From Halorussus vallis (GTDB lineage Archaea > Halobacteriota > Halobacteria > Halobacteriales > Haladaptataceae), in NCBI RefSeq assembly GCF_024138165.1, contig NZ_CP100000.1, positions 2,170,001 to 2,234,000 of the forward strand: a DNA stretch of 64,000 nt, written 5' to 3'. Each line of letters opens with the position of its first letter. Positions within the stretch are counted from its first letter, which is position 1. This document shows positions 9,042 through 17,905 of the stretch, piece by piece. Position numbers and translations under genes: made by a program. The notes below the pieces were generated by a model. That model was not told the DNA's origin. It made no database searches and saw nothing but the letters and a program-made list of their open reading frames with translations.

Positions 9042-12000
9042 TCAGTCGCAACGGCGAACCGCGGCGAACAGTGCGCCGAATAGCGCGACCAGCGCAGTCG
9101 CAACGCCGAGTCCGGGGACGCCCCCGTCACCGCCGACATCGCCGTCTTCGCCACCGTCGCCGGACGAAGAGGCGCCACCGGTGGTCGTGGCGGCTCCGTC
9201 CCCGACGGACAGCGTTCCCGCCGAGACACCGCCGACCGCGACCGCGTGTTGGCCCGCGTCGAACGTGCGGGCGAACGTCACCGTCTTCGATTCACCCGCC
9301 GGAACCGCGACCTCCTTGGTGGCGACGGTTCGGCCGTCCACGGTGAGCCTCGCCTCGTAGGTGCCGTTGCCGTCGCCGGCGTTCTCGACCGTGGCGGTGA
9401 CCTCGACCGTTTCCCCGGATTCGACGCTCGTCTCCGCCAGGTTCGCGTCCGCGACTTCGAACGCGGGTCGTTCGACGCCGACCGCGAACGCGCCGACGCC
9501 CGCGGCGTCGGCGCGGAGGACGTACCGCCCGTCCTCGCGCCCCACGGCCGTCGTTTCGAGGCGGTTCCACGAACCGGCGTCGTAGCGGTACAGCGCGACG
9601 TTCTCGGGAGTCTCAACTTCGCTCTCGGCGACGGAGAACCGCATGCCGACCGAGTCGAGGTCGGCGTTCGTGACGTAGGTCGGCGTTGCGGTGAGGTAGC
9701 CCAGCGTCTCACCGTCGGGCGCGCCGACGCCCGACGGGGAGTCGGCGCTCGCCCGCAGTTCGACGAAGAACCGCGCCGTAGCGTCGACGCTCTTCGGGGT
9801 GACGACCAGATTCTCGAACGTGACCGCACCGCCGCGAAGGCCGTTCGTCGGCGAAATCTTGCCCGGCGAACCGCGACGGGCGCTGGTGACCTTCGCCGTG
9901 ACGTGGTCGTCGGTCACCGAACGAAGTTCGACGCGAACCGACGGCGGCGGCACGCTGCCACCGCCACCGCCACCGCCGCCGCCGCCGCCGGAGTCGCCAC
10001 CGCCGGTCGGGTCGGTGCTGACCGACGCCTCGGCGACGGTGAACGACTCCGTCACCTCTCGGCGATTGCCCGCGTCGTCGAAGACGACGAGCGTGGCGTC
10101 GTAGGTGCCCGCCGGGAGGTCGTCGCGGAAGGTCACCGACGAGTCGGTCACGCTCGCGGGCGTCACGACCACACCGTCGAGTCGGAGCGTGACGTTCTCG
10201 GCGCTCACCCCGGAGTAGCCGTCGGAGAACGTCGCGTCGAGCGTGACGCCGCCGACGGTCGGGGTGGCGTTCTTCGTCCCGAACGCGGTGACGTTCGGCT
10301 TGGCCGACTCCTTCTCGCCCGTGATGGCGTACGTCGAGAAGTGGGGTGCGTCCATCCGGTAGGTGTAGGTGTCGTCGGTCTGGCTTACCAGCGTCGCGTC
10401 CACTCGGTCCCAGCCGTCGCCGGCCGTCTCCTCGACCCAGAACTTCACCGACCGGGGTTTGACGAACCGCCGGTGGACGCGGGCCTCGTCGACGGTCACG
10501 GTGACCGTCGCGTTCGTGATGTCGGCGTTCGGAACGGTGGTGTTGATCTGCGGGAAGTACAGCGACGTCCCGTCGGGGGCGAACCGATTCGCTTCGGGGT
10601 TCTTCTTCGAGGTGCCGACCGTGACGTTGGCCGACTCTGTCGCGGCGTCGCCGGTATCGATCTCGACCGCCTCGACGTTCGCGTCGGCGACCTTGGCGGC
10701 GAGAGTACCGTTCGCGGTCCCGCGCAGCGTCGCCTCTCGGCCGACGCTGTACTCGTCGGTCTCGACCACCCGCTCGTTGCCCGCGCGGTCGCGGACGACC
10801 ACGCTGAAGGTGTGGTTGCCGAGGCGGTGGAACGCCGGAACCGGACCGGTCCAGTTCTTCTGTTGACCTGGCGCGAGTTCGGTGCCGGAATCCGTTCCGA
10901 CCGCGTGCTTCACGACGACCGCGGCCACGCCGCGGTCGTCTGCGGCGTTGACGACGACGCCGACGGGACGTTCGGGGAGAATCTCGTCCGTGCGGTTGAG
11001 TCCCGACTCCGGTTCGTTCACGGTCGGATTCGCGGTGTCGATGGCGAACTCGGTCGTGCCGTGGACTTCCCGGTTGCCCGCCGCGTCGACGCTGTAGAAC
11101 TCGACGGTGTAGTTGCCGTCCTCGGTTACCGTCGGCGGTTCCCCGTAGGACTGCCAGCCGGTCGTGCCGCCCGTGTAGGCGCTGCCGTTGATCCGGTACC
11201 ACGTCGCGGCCACGCCGCTGGTGGCGTCGGTCGCGTCCAGCGCGACGTCGACGTTCGAGCGGTACCAACCGTCATCGCCTTCGGTGCCGTTCAGCGTGAC
11301 GTCCGTCGTCGGTGCGACGGTGTCGACCTTCGCGGTCGTCCGCCCGGCCGTCTCGACGTTGCCGACCTCGTCGGTGCTTCGGTACTCGACGGTGTGAGTT
11401 CCCTCCGAGAGCGCGACGGGACCATCGTAGGTCCGCCACGACCCGCCGTCGATGCGGTACTCCGACGCGACGACCGCGGTCGTCGCGTCGGTCGCGTCGA
11501 GGGTCAGTTCGGGCGCTTCGGTGTACCACCCACTTGCGTTCAGGGTCCCGGCGAACGTCGCGGTGGTGTTCGGCGCGCGGGTGTCGAGGAGGAGTTCCTG
11601 GACTAGCAACGAGTCGCCCCCGTTTCCTGCCGCGTCGGTGGCGGTCGCGAAGACGGAGCGCGTCCCGTCGGAAACCGCCGACGCGTCGACGACGAACGAC
11701 CCCTCGTAGGTGCCGTCGTCGTCCGAATCGCTCAGCGCGACCGACCCGCCGCCGAGTGCCGAGGCGTCCAGCGTGACCCGCTCGACCCCGCTCAGTCCGT
11801 CGGTGACGGCGAGCGCCACCGTCACCGAGTCGCCGTCGGCGACCGCCCGGTCGTTTTTCTCCTCGGCGACCGACTCGACCGTGACGTTCGGCGCGTGACT
11901 GTCGACGACGGCGGTGTCCGACTGGCCGCTCGCACCGTCGTTGCCCTTGTCGTCGGTAACCGTCGTCAGCGTCGCCACGTACTCGCCGTCGCTCGTGAAG

Positions 12001-15000
12001 TTGTACGTCGCGTTGTAGGTGGTTCCCGACGCGGTGAAGTCACCCTCGGTCAGCGTCGCGCTCTCGGGGCCCGTCAGCGAAACCTCGACGTTCGACAGCG
12101 ACTCGTTCGCGTCGAAGGTGACGGCCACGGTCCCGTTCGAAAGGTGGGTCGCGTCGAAGTTCGAGACGTCGGGGCCGCGCGTGTCGACGGTCAGAGTCAA
12201 CAGTGCGCCGCCGGTCGCTTCGGTGCCTTCGACGTCCACCACGCGGTCGAGGGTGACGTCGAAAGAGCCGTCGCGACCGCTCGAAACGTCGGCGACGTAG
12301 GTGAACGTCCCCGACCGGTACGTCTCGGCAAAGTCGGCGCGAGAGAGGCTCCCGGTCACGTCGCCGCCGAGCGAGACGTTGAGTTCCGCGAGCGGTTCGC
12401 TCGTGTTCAGACGCACGTCCACGTCCTGTCCGTCGGCGACCAGCCTGAAGTCCGAGAGCGACGGTTCCGTCTGGTCGGGTTCGCCGAGCGCCACCGCGAT
12501 TTCGGCGTCGCTCGTCAGGTTCAGCCGTCGGACGTACGTTCGGTTGACGAACCGTTCGTCGCCCGCCGGGCGACTGACTTCGACGGTGAGATCGCCGGCG
12601 AACTCCATGCCCCGACGTCCGGTCGCGCGCGGGACCATGTACCCCTCCGCGTCCGTCGGAACCCGGATGAACCGCGCCGTCCCGCCGTCGTTGTGGTGCG
12701 AAACGTCGATGCTCGCGTTCTCGACGGGGACGCCGCTCTCGTTCACGACGCGCACGTCGAGTTCGTGGCCGACCGGGAGGTCGTAACCGCCGAGGTCGGT
12801 GTCGGACGTGACGTTCACGCGGTCGAGCACGTACATGTCGGGCGTCCCGTCCTTCGGATGCGGCGAGTCGGTGAACGTGTCCTGGTAGTACGTGAGGTTG
12901 TACGCCACGCCGGACACCGCCCGGGAGATGGCGAACGCGCCGGTCGCGCCGGTCTCGTCGTAGGGCCACTTCCGCGTGTCGTCGCTCTCGACTCGAACGA
13001 AGTCGTCGGCCGAGGCGCTCCCGTCGGGATGGTAGACCGTTCCGGTGAGGTTGACCGACGAGCGGAGCGTGACGGTGACCTCCCGGTCGCCGGTCACGTT
13101 GAGGTTCCGGACGTACTCCGTGTCGGCGTACGCCCGCTCGCCGTCCGGTGGCGTGACTTTCACCGTTACCGGACCGGCGACTTCGACGCCGGTCGTCGAC
13201 CCGGACGTGATGCGGCCGTCGCGTTCGGTGAAGTAGCCTTCGGAGATGTAGCCGGATCGGTCGCCTTCGGAGACGTGGTGTTGCACGGTCACCTTCGCGA
13301 ACGGCACGGCGTCACCGCTCTCGTCGACGACGGTGACGTTCAGGTCGTGGGCTTGCGGGAGCCGAGTCGCCCCGAGGTCCGACGACGAAGACCCGTTGAC
13401 GATGTCGAGGGCGTAGATGTCGGGCGACCCGTCGTCGGGCATGTACGTCTCGTCGTGCCGACTGGCGTTCGCCTGATAGTAGCCGACGACGTAATCGTCG
13501 GTCGTCTCGGTCGCCGTGACGGAGAACGCGCCGGTCGCGTTCGTGCGAGTCCCGGCGCTCCCGTCGCCGGAGAGTCGATAAGCACGAATCTCGTCGTCGG
13601 CCGCAGGGTCGCCGTCGGCTTCCGCGACGCTACCCGAGAGGTTCACGCGCTCGTCGGTCAGCGTGATCGTGACCGACCGGTCGCCGGTCACGTCGACGAT
13701 AGCGGTGTGATTCTGGCCCGAGTATCGACTGTGTTCGGGGGCCCGCGCGACCGCGCGGACTCGGCCCTCGACTTCGATTCCGAGCGACCCGTTCGTGACG
13801 ACCGTACCGTTCGACGCGGTTCGGAGGCCCTCGTAGTCGACGTACCCCGTGGTCGCGTCGGCGTACCGGAGAACTTCGACGCTGGCGTTCGGAATGGGGT
13901 CGCCCTCCTCGTCCACGACCGAGACGTTCAGCACGTGTCCCGTCGGGAGCGAACGAGCGCCGAGGTCGGACGATGAAGTGCCGTTGACCACGCCGAGTAT
14001 GCCGAAGTCGGCCACGCCGTCGTGGCCCTTCGGCGCGCGACGCGTCTTCGACCCGTCGTCGAGGTCGTTCTGGTAGTAGCCGACGATGTAGTCTTCGCGT
14101 GCGGACGCGACGGTCAGCGAGAAGTTCCCGTTCGCTCCGACCGTCTGTTCGGTGACCGTCCCCGCGGAGGTCGGATAGACGCCCAGCGTGTCGTCGTCAA
14201 CGCCGTGACCGCTCGAACTGACGTTTCCGGAGTAGGTGACGGTGTCGGGCATCGTTTCGGTGACGCCGGGAACCGCACCGTCGGCGTCCACCAGTCCGTA
14301 GCCGGTCAGATTGTTCGGTTCGTCGCCGCGGAGGGGGACCGCCGTCGAGCGAAGCCGCGACTTCACCTGCGCGGGCGAGAGGGTATCGTCGGCGCTCAGC
14401 ATGAGCGCGACGACGCCCGCGGTGTACGGCGTCGACGCCGAAGTGCCGTAGAAGCTATCGTACACCGAAGTCGTCACACCGTCGGGCGCCACCACGTCGG
14501 GCTTGATACGGCCGTCGATGGTCGGCCCGCGCGAGGAGAACGATTCCAACACGTTGTCGGAGTAGTGGGTCGCCCCGACCGCGATGACGTTCCGACCGGT
14601 CGCTGGAACCGTGACGGTCCGGGCGCGGGTCGCGAATTCGGGGTCGCCGCTGGACCGGAAGAAGGCGTCGAAGTCGGCGGTGCCGTTGGCGTCGTACGAT
14701 TCGATTCGGAGGTAGGCGCGCTCGCCGTCGGAGACGTAAGTCTGAACGCGTTCGGTCGGGGCGGCCGTGCCGTCCTGCACGTTCGTCGACTGGTCGAGAA
14801 TTGACCCGCTCCCGTCGACGAGGTACACGTCGTAGTCCTCGTGGCTCTTCGGCCAATCGTTCCAACTCACGTAGACGCTGACCGAACCGCTACCGTCGGC
14901 CGGGGTCACCTCCATCCGATTCTTCCCGTCCCGAAAGTCGAGGGAGCCATCGGCGTCCGCGTCCCGCCACGTCCCGTTCCAGTGGCTCCCCTCGCCGTCG

Positions 15001-15983
15001 TTCCCGGCGGAGCTGAGCCAGGTCGTTCCGTTCGCGACGGAGGCGTTGATGCGGTCGTTCATCGGCCCCGTCCCGTCGAGCGGGCCGGCGTTGTACCAAC
15101 TGAGCGACATCGTGACCACGTCGGTATCGGTGTTGGCCTCCAGCCAATCGATGGCCTCGTAGAATTCGACGCCGGTGCCGACCTTGACTGCGATTATCGA
15201 GGCGTTGGGCGCCGTATCGGCGACTAGTTCGGCGGTCGCGGTGCCGTGTTCGCCCGACCGGTTGCTCATCCGACGCGGGTCGGGCGAACTGAAGTTCCGC
15301 CAGTCCACGAGGTGGTCGGCTATCTCGGGGTTGGTCACGTCGAAACCGGTGTCGATGACCGCGACGGTGACGCCGTCCCCGGAGACGCCCGCGTCATGGA
15401 CGGCACCGACGTCCATGTTCGAGAGCCCTTCGCCGACGATTTCGTTCGTATCCGGGCGGCGGGGCTTCCGGACGAACGAGACGGCCGGCGACTCCGCGAA
15501 TGCGGAGACGGCCGCCTTCGGGACTCGCGCCTGTACGAGGGCGCCGTGGCGCGCCTGCACGTTTCCGCCGTTCTCGCCGACCAGTCCGGCGACGGCGTCT
15601 CCCCGGCCGGACTTCGCCTCCACGACGACCCGCACGAACTCGGGGCCGGTTCGACCGTCGGCGTCAGGGGTAGACGCCGAGACGGCCTCCGAAACCGCCG
15701 AGGAGAGCTTCGGGTTCGTCGGTTTCCCGGCGGCCGCCCGATTCTGGGACTCGGTCGTGGTCGCGGCAGTTTCGTTCGTCGTCGCGGTCGTAGCCGTCGC
15801 CCTCTCGTTGTCGGGGACGGTCGTCGCAGTCGTCACTGCGGTCGTGGTGTCGTTCCCGGAGACGTCGCCCGTCGTGCCGTCGTTGGCGACCGAGAGCGCA
15901 CTCGCCGGGATGGCCGCGGTCATCGTCGAGACGACCACGAGCAACGCGAGCGCGAGCGCCGAGAGGCGGTCGCGGTCGTTCAC
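9042..15983 (-). CDS. Giant secreted subtilisin-family (S8) serine protease with PGF-CTERM-like anchor
   Basis: A 2,313-residue exported protein with a signal peptide at 1-30 and a Thr-rich spacer to about 90. A prodomain follows at about 115-177. The S8 catalytic domain runs from about 190 to 560, with Asp211 (VIDTG), His246 (GEHGTAT), Asn328 (SSAGNDG) and Ser515 (YGTSASTP). It has an inserted beta domain at about 350-450. Then come three 200-residue carboxypeptidase-regulatory-like repeats (each with VVGYYQ-, VNGSSSSDLG- or D-L-N-V-like motifs), several Ig-like modules and two OmpL47-like repeats (GWYTEAPEL; GWYRSNVDV). The C-terminus has a Gly-run linker, a PGF-pre-PGF-like domain, a CARDB-like domain and the tail PGLGVATALVALFGALFA plus arginines. 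It is probably anchored to the S-layer by archaeosortase. The start overlaps the upstream lipoprotein stop by four bases. Confidence 0.93.
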   Translation of the reverse strand: MNDRDRLSALALALLVVVSTMTAAIPASALSVANDGTTGDVSGNDTTTAVTTATTVPDNERATATTATTNETAATTTESQNRAAAGKPTNPKLSSAVSEAVSASTPDADGRTGPEFVRVVVEAKSGRGDAVAGLVGENGGNVQARHGALVQARVPKAAVSAFAESPAVSFVRKPRRPDTNEIVGEGLSNMDVGAVHDAGVSGDGVTVAVIDTGFDVTNPEIADHLVDWRNFSSPDPRRMSNRSGEHGTATAELVADTAPNASIIAVKVGTGVEFYEAIDWLEANTDTDVVTMSLSWYNAGPLDGTGPMNDRINASVANGTTWLSSAGNDGEGSHWNGTWRDADADGSLDFRDGKNRMEVTPADGSGSVSVYVSWNDWPKSHEDYDVYLVDGSGSILDQSTNVQDGTAAPTERVQTYVSDGERAYLRIESYDANGTADFDAFFRSSGDPEFATRARTVTVPATGRNVIAVGATHYSDNVLESFSSRGPTIDGRIKPDVVAPDGVTTSVYDSFYGTSASTPYTAGVVALMLSADDTLSPAQVKSRLRSTAVPLRGDEPNNLTGYGLVDADGAVPGVTETMPDTVTYSGNVSSSGHGVDDDTLGVYPTSAGTVTEQTVGANGNFSLTVASAREDYIVGYYQNDLDDGSKTRRAPKGHDGVADFGILGVVNGTSSSDLGARSLPTGHVLNVSVVDEEGDPIPNASVEVLRYADATTGYVDYEGLRTASNGTVVTNGSLGIEVEGRVRAVARAPEHSRYSGQNHTAIVDVTGDRSVTITLTDERVNLSGSVAEADGDPAADDEIRAYRLSGDGSAGTRTNATGAFSVTATETTDDYVVGYYQANASRHDETYMPDDGSPDIYALDIVNGSSSSDLGATRLPQAHDLNVTVVDESGDAVPFAKVTVQHHVSEGDRSGYISEGYFTERDGRITSGSTTGVEVAGPVTVKVTPPDGERAYADTEYVRNLNVTGDREVTVTLRSSVNLTGTVYHPDGSASADDFVRVESDDTRKWPYDETGATGAFAISRAVSGVAYNLTYYQDTFTDSPHPKDGTPDMYVLDRVNVTSDTDLGGYDLPVGHELDVRVVNESGVPVENASIDVSHHNDGGTARFIRVPTDAEGYMVPRATGRRGMEFAGDLTVEVSRPAGDERFVNRTYVRRLNLTSDAEIAVALGEPDQTEPSLSDFRLVADGQDVDVRLNTSEPLAELNVSLGGDVTGSLSRADFAETYRSGTFTYVADVSSGRDGSFDVTLDRVVDVEGTEATGGALLTLTVDTRGPDVSNFDATHLSNGTVAVTFDANESLSNVEVSLTGPESATLTEGDFTASGTTYNATYNFTSDGEYVATLTTVTDDKGNDGASGQSDTAVVDSHAPNVTVESVAEEKNDRAVADGDSVTVALAVTDGLSGVERVTLDASALGGGSVALSDSDDDGTYEGSFVVDASAVSDGTRSVFATATDAAGNGGDSLLVQELLLDTRAPNTTATFAGTLNASGWYTEAPELTLDATDATTAVVASEYRIDGGSWRTYDGPVALSEGTHTVEYRSTDEVGNVETAGRTTAKVDTVAPTTDVTLNGTEGDDGWYRSNVDVALDATDATSGVAATWYRINGSAYTGGTTGWQSYGEPPTVTEDGNYTVEFYSVDAAGNREVHGTTEFAIDTANPTVNEPESGLNRTDEILPERPVGVVVNAADDRGVAAVVVKHAVGTDSGTELAPGQQKNWTGPVPAFHRLGNHTFSVVVRDRAGNERVVETDEYSVGREATLRGTANGTLAAKVADANVEAVEIDTGDAATESANVTVGTSKKNPEANRFAPDGTSLYFPQINTTVPNADITNATVTVTVDEARVHRRFVKPRSVKFWVEETAGDGWDRVDATLVSQTDDTYTYRMDAPHFSTYAITGEKESAKPNVTAFGTKNATPTVGGVTLDATFSDGYSGVSAENVTLRLDGVVVTPASVTDSSVTFRDDLPAGTYDATLVVFDDAGNRREVTESFTVAEASVSTDPTGGGDSGGGGGGGGGGGSVPPPSVRVELRSVTDDHVTAKVTSARRGSPGKISPTNGLRGGAVTFENLVVTPKSVDATARFFVELRASADSPSGVGAPDGETLGYLTATPTYVTNADLDSVGMRFSVAESEVETPENVALYRYDAGSWNRLETTAVGREDGRYVLRADAAGVGAFAVGVERPAFEVADANLAETSVESGETVEVTATVENAGDGNGTYEARLTVDGRTVATKEVAVPAGESKTVTFARTFDAGQHAVAVGGVSAGTLSVGDGAATTTGGASSSGDGGEDGDVGGDGGVPGLGVATALVALFGALFAAVRRCD

Positions 15984-16516
15984 GGGTTCACCCCCGTTTC
16001 GTCGGTGCTACCATCGTCGGCCGCGGGTCGGGCGGGCGCGCGGACGCGACTCACGTTCGCGTCGGCCGCGAGCGCCACGAGGTCCTCGAGTTCGACGAAC
16101 GCCTGTGCGAAATCGTCGTGCGACGCGGTGACGGTGGCGTCGTAGTCGGCGGGAAACGCGCGGTCGTCGCGCAACTCCGCGACGACCGCGACGCGACCGT
16201 CGCGAGTTCGGAGTCCGTGAGCCTCCGCGTAGGCGCGTCGGTCGTCGGTACGGAGATAGCCCGCGAGCGTCGCGCCGAGCGACGACGTACCCGCCGAATC
16301 AGGGGTGGTCGAGGTTTCGGCCGCGTAGTCGGCCGTCGTCCGGTCGTCCGACGGAGTCACCGTCGGCGGCTTCTCCGACGCTGTCGGCGAGTCACCGGAC
16401 ACTGGTGATCCACCGAGACAGCCCGCACAGACGACGAGCAGTCCGAGTGCGATCGATTCACCTCGAACGGATTTCGACCGATTATCATCAGAGATAATTG
16501 ATAATAATCCATTCAT
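15980..16516 (-). CDS. Lipoprotein with a stand-alone protease-prodomain-like C-terminus
   Basis: A 178-residue protein with a hydrophobic signal and a lipobox-like CAGC (Cys33), then a Ser/Thr/Pro-rich linker (about 35-85). The C-terminal domain (about 107-164) aligns without gaps to the prodomain of the adjacent protease: lipoprotein 131-164 against protease 144-177 gives 14 identical residues of 34 by hand, ending VSRVRAPARP versus VSFVRKPRRP. The stop overlaps the protease start (ATGA), so the two are co-translated. An inhibitor or folding-helper role is inferred. The ATG at 16516 is used; a GTG at 16468 would give a more compact signal peptide. The promoter region is very AT-rich (16485-16560). 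Confidence 0.75.
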   Translation of the reverse strand: MNGLLSIISDDNRSKSVRGESIALGLLVVCAGCLGGSPVSGDSPTASEKPPTVTPSDDRTTADYAAETSTTPDSAGTSSLGATLAGYLRTDDRRAYAEAHGLRTRDGRVAVVAELRDDRAFPADYDATVTASHDDFAQAFVELEDLVALAADANVSRVRAPARPAADDGSTDETGVNP

Positions 16517-16775: not shown

Positions 16776-17192
16776 TCAGGAGTCCTCGTCCATAATCGGC
16801 TTGCCGTCCTCGGTCGGCGGCGCGATGTGGTCGACGAACTCGTCGATGCCGGGGTCCTCGACGCGCACTCGGACGTGGATGTCGCCGAGTTCGTCGGGGT
16901 TGCCCACCGCGAAGTTGACCACGCCCTCGAAGGCGGCCTGCTTCTTCAGGTCGAACGAGAAGGTGTCGCCGCGCCGCTCGGCGAAGAACTCTCCGCGAGC
17001 GGTGTCCAGGATCTCCTGGCGGTGGAGCAGTTCCGAGAAGTGGTCGAGCGCGTGGACCTCCGCCACCACTTCGCCGCGGCGCTCCTCGACGTCGGCGCCG
17101 GGGAAGATGTTGGTGACGGCGTCGGCCACCCGGTCGGTGAGTTCGGTGTCCGAGACGGGAGCCGTAATCTCGACGTCGACGCTGTAGATCAT
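16776..17192 (-). CDS. UPF0201-family RNA-binding-domain protein
   Basis: A 138-residue protein of the archaeal UPF0201 family, recognised by its start (MIYSVDVEITAPV), the central alpha/beta region (SELLHRQEILDTARG) and VNFAVGNPDELGDIHVRV. These proteins have an L5-like RNA-binding fold. The exact role is not established. Its start overlaps the stop of the UPF0200 kinase-like gene by four bases, and these two families are commonly paired in archaea, so a joint function is likely. Confidence 0.85.
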   Translation of the reverse strand: MIYSVDVEITAPVSDTELTDRVADAVTNIFPGADVEERRGEVVAEVHALDHFSELLHRQEILDTARGEFFAERRGDTFSFDLKKQAAFEGVVNFAVGNPDELGDIHVRVRVEDPGIDEFVDHIAPPTEDGKPIMDEDS

Positions 17193-17785
17193 ACCTCACC
17201 CTCCGGGGTGGGTCCGCTCTCCGACGTTCGCGCCCGTTCGAGGCCGGCGACACCGTCCTCGACGAGCGCCCGGATCTTCTCCTGGAACGACTCCAGCGAG
17301 GCGGTGTTCTCGACGGTGACCTCCGCGCGGGCGATGGCGTCGTCCATGCCGAACCCGCGCTCGCGCTCGTCGCGTTCGCGCAGGCTCTCGTCGTCGGTGT
17401 TGTCGCGGCCGCGCGACTCGACGCGCTCGGCCCGGAGTTCGAAGGGCGCTTCGACGCTGACCAGCGTGAACGCGTCGCCGAACGCCTCCTCGAAGCGCTG
17501 GACCTCCACGCCCGCGCGGATGCCGTCGACCAGCACGGTGTCGTTCTCCTCTAAGGCCTCCTCGATGACGGGTAGCGAACGCTGGGCGATGGCGTCGAGT
17601 CCGTTCTCCTCGCGGAGTTTCTGGGCGATTTCGCCGTGGTGGTCCGCGGGGTCAAGGCCGCGGTCGCGACACTCCCGTCGAATCACGTCGCCCATCGTGA
17701 CGACGGGGATGCCCATCTCCTCGGCGACGGCGGCGGCCTCGCTCTTGCCGCTGCCGGGCAACCCCACGATACCGATGACCTTCAT
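17189..17785 (-). CDS. UPF0200-family nucleotide kinase-like protein
   Basis: A 198-residue P-loop NTPase with the N-terminal Walker A motif GLPGSGKSEAAAVAEEMG, MGDVIRRE, and a nucleoside-kinase-like core (VLVDGIRAGVEVQRF; SVEAPFELRAERVESRGRDN). The family resembles dephospho-CoA and adenylate kinases. A role in CoA synthesis has been proposed for relatives, but the substrate is not proven. The ATG at 17785 is chosen because it directly precedes the first strand KVIGIVG. It is the first gene of a two-gene unit with the UPF0201 gene and is divergent from tRNA-Arg. Confidence 0.85.
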   Translation of the reverse strand: MKVIGIVGLPGSGKSEAAAVAEEMGIPVVTMGDVIRRECRDRGLDPADHHGEIAQKLREENGLDAIAQRSLPVIEEALEENDTVLVDGIRAGVEVQRFEEAFGDAFTLVSVEAPFELRAERVESRGRDNTDDESLRERDERERGFGMDDAIARAEVTVENTASLESFQEKIRALVEDGVAGLERARTSESGPTPEGEV

Positions 17786-17905
17786 TGAATTGGGATACTG
17801 GCGAGGCCCGCTTAAGCCCTGTGTTCGGGCGGGCGGAGAGGATTGTCTCGCGGACGCGGCGTGAAGCCGCATCGTTTTTTAACGGGCGGCCGAAAGGGAT
17901 TCTGA

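Follow-up and report, generated by a model that had tools for sequence, protein, structure and literature searches.

Stand-alone inhibitors of MEROPS family I9 include POIA1, the yeast protease B inhibitor and Arabidopsis SPI-1. In known prodomain complexes, the tail following strand 4 of the prodomain occupies the active-site groove of the protease. SUB1-ProM is a stand-alone propeptide-like protein whose locus lies beside subtilase genes, and it acts as a potent inhibitor (PMC6993865). In Aeromonas, ORF2 is encoded beside the propeptide-deficient protease ASP and has been described as chaperone and temporary inhibitor of this enzyme (PMC5638518). The prodomain of the clostridial protease CspB, supplied in trans, folds and blocks its protease via residues P3-P1 (PMC3567191). 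In Treponema denticola, prcB is the first gene of the prcB-prcA-prtP operon; PrcB interacts with the S8 protease PrtP, which is undetectable in the absence of PrcB, and no PrcB homologues have been reported outside oral treponemes (PMC8167434). No description of an archaeal or membrane-tethered stand-alone prodomain mimic was found in the open-licence papers searched, an absence which is no proof of novelty.

The window analyzed here is a stretch of 64,000 nucleotides from the 5.05 Mb genome of Halorussus vallis. It harbors a gene for a small lipoprotein that directly precedes the gene for a giant S8 protease. A previous sequence-only reading had described both genes and their four-base overlap with the lipoprotein first, and its coordinates, strand and frames are right. 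The locus consists of the following features:

16776..17872, minus strand: genes for a small conserved protein and a nucleotide kinase-like protein upstream of the pair, used as locus markers in other Halorussus genomes
15980..16516, minus strand: stand-alone prodomain-like lipoprotein gene, 178 amino acids (open reading frame and translation; 16 homologues in other haloarchaeal genomes)
16418..16516, minus strand: N-terminal signal segment with the lipobox-like motif CAGC at its end and Cys33 as predicted lipid attachment site (sequence)
16280..16417, minus strand: Thr/Ser/Pro-rich linker from the lipid anchor to the domain (sequence; low-confidence start of the AlphaFold model)
16025..16279, minus strand: predicted prodomain-like domain, residues 80-164 (AlphaFold core with pLDDT >90; best structural matches are S8 prodomains)
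15983..16024, minus strand: acidic C-terminal tail of the lipoprotein, residues 165-178 (sequence; tail comparison)
15980..15983, minus strand: four-base stop/start overlap GTGA, lipoprotein gene first and protease gene second (sequence)
9042..15983, minus strand: giant S8 protease gene, 2313 amino acids, GTG start (Pfam PF00082, E 1e-34)
15453..15641, minus strand: own (cis) prodomain of the protease, residues about 115-177 (AlphaFold; weak profile matches)
14439..15353, minus strand: catalytic span Asp211-Ser515 including His246 and Asn328 (D/H/N/S alignment columns; AlphaFold model)
about 14655-14984, minus strand: beta-sandwich insert in the catalytic domain (AlphaFold strands, model residues 241-350)

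The protease comprises an N-terminal signal, the prodomain, the catalytic domain with its beta-sandwich insert, an extended series of Ig-like and related domains, and a PGF-CTERM-like C-terminus, which is indicated by a match to NCBIfam PGF-pre-PGF (2.7e-14) and a sub-threshold match to PGF_CTERM. Its best Foldseek matches are the Csp proteins, which are clostridial germination proteases. In the AlphaFold model, the cis prodomain has the canonical order strand-helix-strand-strand-helix-strand, and its profile has weak matches in the PDB (E 0.14-0.6) to the propeptides of subtilisin BPN', subtilisin E and Tk-subtilisin. The genome contains 16 Pfam S8 matches, some of which are parts of one gene. 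The GTGA overlap points to a tight translational coupling of lipoprotein and protease.

The 178-residue lipoprotein is a separate gene product that contains no protease domain, and this also applies to its homologues. It matches no Pfam or NCBIfam family above cut-off, and the curated Pfam model Inhibitor_I9 (PF05922) is matched by none of 17 stand-alone domains and none of 28 prodomains. According to the AlphaFold model, its domain consists of helices at residues 82-89, 93-100 and 143-150 and of strands at residues 108-115, 127-133, 136-142 and 155-159. In the tail comparison, the C-terminal tail extends beyond the position equivalent to the end of a cleaved prodomain.

The sequence-only reading had based its claim of relatedness on 14 identities in an ungapped alignment of lipoprotein residues 131-164 with protease residues 144-177, and this count of 14/34 is exact. 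As single-pair evidence it is only modestly unusual, since 2 of 200 shuffles yielded a 34-mer with as many identities. By Smith-Waterman the pair scores 92, more than any of 1000 shuffles (mean 46, sd 8, max 88), but low-complexity Thr/Ser tracts contribute to this score. Stronger indications come from family profiles. An HMM built from four lipoproteins matches the prodomain of the window protease at E 1e-6 in a whole-genome search, and with an HMM of 17 stand-alone domains the prodomain is the best match in 16 of 16 paired proteases with a readable prodomain, several of these matches being weak (E 0.04-0.3). The protease of genome G004, whose frame is interrupted upstream of the catalytic domain, was left out of this test; a prodomain is present on its upstream piece (L100). 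Comparison of the profile of the 17 stand-alone domains with the prodomain profile by hhalign resulted in a probability of 97.4% (E 1.3e-11), compared to 0.2% for the catalytic domain as control. The upstream strand match VAVVAEL/VRVVVEA, which had also been proposed, falls inside this profile alignment. The strongest motif common to stand-alone and cis domains is V-R-x-P at the end of strand 4, which is found in its strict form in 12 of 17 stand-alone and 18 of 28 cis domains. A search of PDB sequences with the stand-alone profile gave no prodomain matches. Judged by sequence profiles, the homology of the lipoprotein domain to S8 protease prodomains is real, and it is the family profile evidence, not the single pair, that settles it.

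Among solved structures, the titles of the 33 best VIA-align matches of the lipoprotein domain identify all of them as S8 proteases that include a prodomain or as prodomain chains, among them Tk-SP, Tk-subtilisin, subtilisins E and BPN', PCSK9, cucumisin, furin/PC1 and CspB. The Z scores, mostly 5-8, are not decisive alone; the fold assignment becomes decisive because the matches are unanimous and are joined by independent sequence evidence. The predicted folds of the two segments, whose comparison had been named as a check, agree. The model of the lipoprotein domain has no helix between strands 1 and 2 and has two helices before strand 1; the domain is a variant of the prodomain fold in which helix 1 has shifted to the N-terminus. 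In known prodomains the helices point away from the enzyme, so that this rearrangement need not affect the binding face.

In a tree of 76 domains, which is based on about 90 columns and weak in its deep branches, the haloarchaeal stand-alone domains fall into a single clade (96/88) that is separate from haloarchaeal prodomains and adjoins the stand-alone domains of Methanophagales and Bipolaricaulota. A recent copying of the neighboring prodomain is unlikely for the window and was rejected on the basis of this tree. Of the suggestion that the lipoprotein carries a copy of the neighboring prodomain, homology and fold were confirmed; the domain is instead an older parallel lineage traveling with the protease, with its own clade and a rearranged first helix. 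In two haloarchaeal S8 proteases of another clade, L092 (G255) and L095 (G306), a domain of the stand-alone type serves as own prodomain, which ties this type to S8 enzymes independently.

The proposed gene pair recurs in other haloarchaea. At least 17 of 392 genomes of the haloarchaeal order, in five family codes, encode a stand-alone homologue; these counts are lower bounds because the search scored a limited number of candidates per genome, and the 392 genomes represent a sample. All 17 stand-alone proteins are encoded beside an S8 protease of one subfamily. The S8 frame is located directly downstream in 15 of the 17, it is also downstream in L083, and it is divergent upstream in L082. In 13 of the 17 pairs, the protease starts at -20 to +1 relative to the stop of the partner, and this tight coupling agrees with the earlier view that the lipoprotein is made in step with the protease. 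The other four pairs stand apart as a group, their genes being divergent or separated by some 200-580 bases. None of the 17 paired proteases has lost a catalytic residue (D, H, N or S), and the own prodomain is kept in all 16 with a readable N-terminus. The protease frame is interrupted just before or inside the catalytic domain in L068/L100 (G004) and L102/L233 (G614).

Above a score gap at E 1e-100, the 392 genomes contain 29 proteases of this subfamily, 16 paired and 13 without partner. Seven unpaired Halorussus proteases (L084-L090) lie behind the two genes that also precede the pair in the window, and no trace of the partner gene was found at these seven syntenic loci. On the protease tree, pairing requires about nine changes, which implies repeated loss or gain of the partner. 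The dependence is one-way: stand-alone homologues without the protease were not found (0/17), but 13 of 29 proteases have no partner. The sequence-only reading had named solitary proteases together with solitary lipoproteins as a refutation; the former exist, the latter were not found. Divergence of stand-alone and catalytic domains is correlated in Mantel tests with r 0.84 (n=17) and, for ten non-redundant group I pairs, r 0.48 (p 0.003), both values including shared host ancestry.

Outside the haloarchaea, a pair is encoded in Methanophagales (L102/G614) and in G449 and G670, two other genomes of the phylum, and all stand-alone homologues found in these three archaeal genomes adjoin an S8 protease of the one subfamily. 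In seven Bipolaricaulota/Acetothermia contigs with the pair, the domain forms the end of a longer secreted protein. These proteins (L116, L146, L106, L111, L121, L104, L162) have roughly 250-320 amino acids with an unnamed N-terminal part and the domain at the C-terminus, and their genes lie directly before the S8 protease gene. In the deltaproteobacterial contig L167, the pair has a lipobox-like LGC and the domain is closest to the neighboring prodomain; this gene probably originated from an independent duplication of the prodomain of its own protease. Weak profile matches to other proteins (about 1e-4) were taken as chance; the one examined, in G226, belongs by reading to a DHH/OB-type protein without S8 domain.

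Membrane tethering, as the sequence-only reading had proposed for the window, is predicted for nearly all homologues. A lipobox-like motif is present at the end of the signal in 16 of 17 haloarchaeal proteins, and the exception, L080, has a C-terminal transmembrane helix instead. Such a helix also replaces the lipobox in the non-haloarchaeal archaea (G449, G670 and G614; loci L231, L232 and L233). Four paired proteases, L070, L081, L082 and L083 (G096, G208, G303 and G211), have no recognizable signal peptide, whereas their partners have signal and lipobox. A meeting at the surface is therefore not assured in this group, and a surface model does not account for it. Secretion without signal peptide has been reported for PopC of Myxococcus (PMC6434023), which offers a comparison. 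Genes neighboring signal-less proteases encode a protein with macroglobulin-like MG2 and filamin-like domains (L081, 6871-9201, minus strand) and a repetitive adhesin-like protein without Pfam family above cut-off (L083, 8342-10222, plus strand).

The best explanation for these findings is that the lipoprotein is a tethered in-trans inhibitor of the neighboring S8 protease, for which a probability of roughly one half (0.52) is estimated. Computation provides the homology, the fold, the gene coupling and the one-way dependence of the partner on the protease. A lipid-tethered relative of the prodomain would be synthesized immediately ahead of a surface S8 protease and in coupling with it, and this protease has a cis prodomain as well. 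After lipidation and at the cell surface, the tethered domain would bind the matured catalytic domain as a cleaved prodomain does, with its sheet against two surface helices of the enzyme and its tail in the non-primed substrate sites. The resulting local and possibly reversible inhibition in trans could restrain the protease near the membrane of the producer and could thereby serve self-protection.

Tail lengths bear on this model. The stand-alone proteins L072, L075, L076, L079, L082 and L083 end 8-10 residues past the strand-4 valine, and by reading this is also the case for L116, L146 and L167. With the end of the BPN' propeptide as comparison, the position of these ends suggests an approximate match to the expected cut of the cis prodomain, where the AlphaFold model is disordered at PDTNEI. 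The window lipoprotein has 20 residues after the strand-4 valine, about ten more than the shorter homologues. Its tail thus does not end at a product-like position, which counts against inhibition, as does the fact that most Halorussus relatives do without the partner at the same locus.

A folding chaperone acting in trans, whose tethered domain aids folding or maturation on the outer face of the membrane with inhibition as an incidental effect, would resemble Aeromonas ORF2. The ORF2 structure (3wqb) is among the fold matches of the lipoprotein domain (Z 4.1), and a partner required while the protease is synthesized could well be encoded upstream and tightly coupled, as is the case here. The paired proteases, unlike ASP, keep their own prodomain, so that folding help is already supplied in cis, and the 13 of 29 close relatives without partner indicate that it is dispensable, an optional accessory and not a required folding factor. 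Partner-free proteases speak against an obligatory chaperone and are consistent with an inhibitor that is optional. As the cis prodomain is present, partner-free relatives exist and the partner was never found without the protease, inhibition is favored over an obligatory chaperone; a chaperone is considered unlikely but is a serious rival. Alternatively, the prodomain-like fold could retain or stabilize the protease in a membrane complex as a surface assembly or anchoring partner. The requirement of PrtP for PrcB would be a precedent, and tethering is the trait that persists most across anchor types. The window protease has, however, its own C-terminal PGF-CTERM-like anchor, and the conserved V-R-x-P strand with its tail suggests contact with the active-site face instead of generic anchoring. 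This role has a similarly small probability and is a serious rival as well.

It is still more improbable that the fold has been kept to inhibit foreign or other endogenous S8 proteases and that linkage reflects joint transfer only. The S8 matches elsewhere in the genome would offer such targets, and a role in antagonism has been reported for secreted haloarchaeal proteases (PMC12893001), but the partner is linked without exception to one protease subfamily; this applies to 17 of 17 haloarchaeal cases and again to the pairs of other archaea and bacteria. A resemblance by chance or low complexity, with a lipoprotein unrelated to prodomains, has a negligible probability: it could appeal to the modest single-pair statistics and to Pfam, which names neither the lipoprotein domain nor the cis prodomain, and it is contradicted by the agreement of profile, fold and register evidence.

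Inhibition by the tethered lipoprotein could tentatively be extended to a 'two-cap' principle by which prokaryotes control surface subtilases in general, with a cis cap for folding and a second, membrane-tethered cap encoded in the same operon. Conserved as a gene pair from haloarchaea to Bipolaricaulota, the tethered cap might then keep the matured enzyme off near the producer's own membrane as the immunity partner of an exported protease, a possible and still doubtful generalization. If this recurrent tethered partner restrains the protease, it would illustrate how a potent surface protease can be produced without harm to the cell, and it would represent a genetically encoded, enzyme-specific protease inhibitor working in high salt. 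The gene pair also opens a direct route to the study of the giant surface proteases of archaea.

Several known systems share parts of this arrangement. Clostridial Csp proteins such as CspB, the best fold matches of the window protease, likewise have a beta-sandwich inserted in the catalytic domain, and the Csp prodomain works in trans, as is proposed for the lipoprotein. In contrast to the pair described here, the Csp prodomain is encoded in cis and stays bound, the Csp proteases are spore proteins, and the CspB study describes no lipoprotein partner (PMC3567191). As in the window, where acylation of the cysteine is predicted, the gene of the dentilisin lipoprotein PrcB precedes that of an S8 protease which carries a propeptide itself; PrcB-PrcA-PrtP is, however, a three-gene operon, and the likeness drawn here is one of gene layout. 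Aeromonas ASP-ORF2 also consists of an S8 protease and a small, structurally comparable protein encoded beside it, and ORF2 acts on ASP in trans, the mode proposed for the lipoprotein. ORF2 is encoded downstream of a propeptide-deficient protease, whereas the haloarchaeal protease keeps its prodomain and has a tethered partner upstream. The stand-alone inhibitors of family I9 likewise have a prodomain-like fold without a protease domain. They differ from the lipoprotein, a putative inhibitor, which has no Pfam match, carries helix 1 at the N-terminus and is genetically coupled to one protease. With SUB1-ProM, the lipoprotein shares a stand-alone gene adjoining subtilase genes, the propeptide fold and a partner enzyme with its own propeptide. 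SUB1-ProM is a eukaryotic and proven inhibitor not described as tethered, in contrast to the prokaryotic protein with its lipid or helix tether, translational coupling and presumed inhibitory function. Eukaryotic stand-alone prodomain mimics and a few bacterial chaperones of this kind are already known, and the lipoprotein described here adds a new, prokaryotic variant with a predicted membrane tether.
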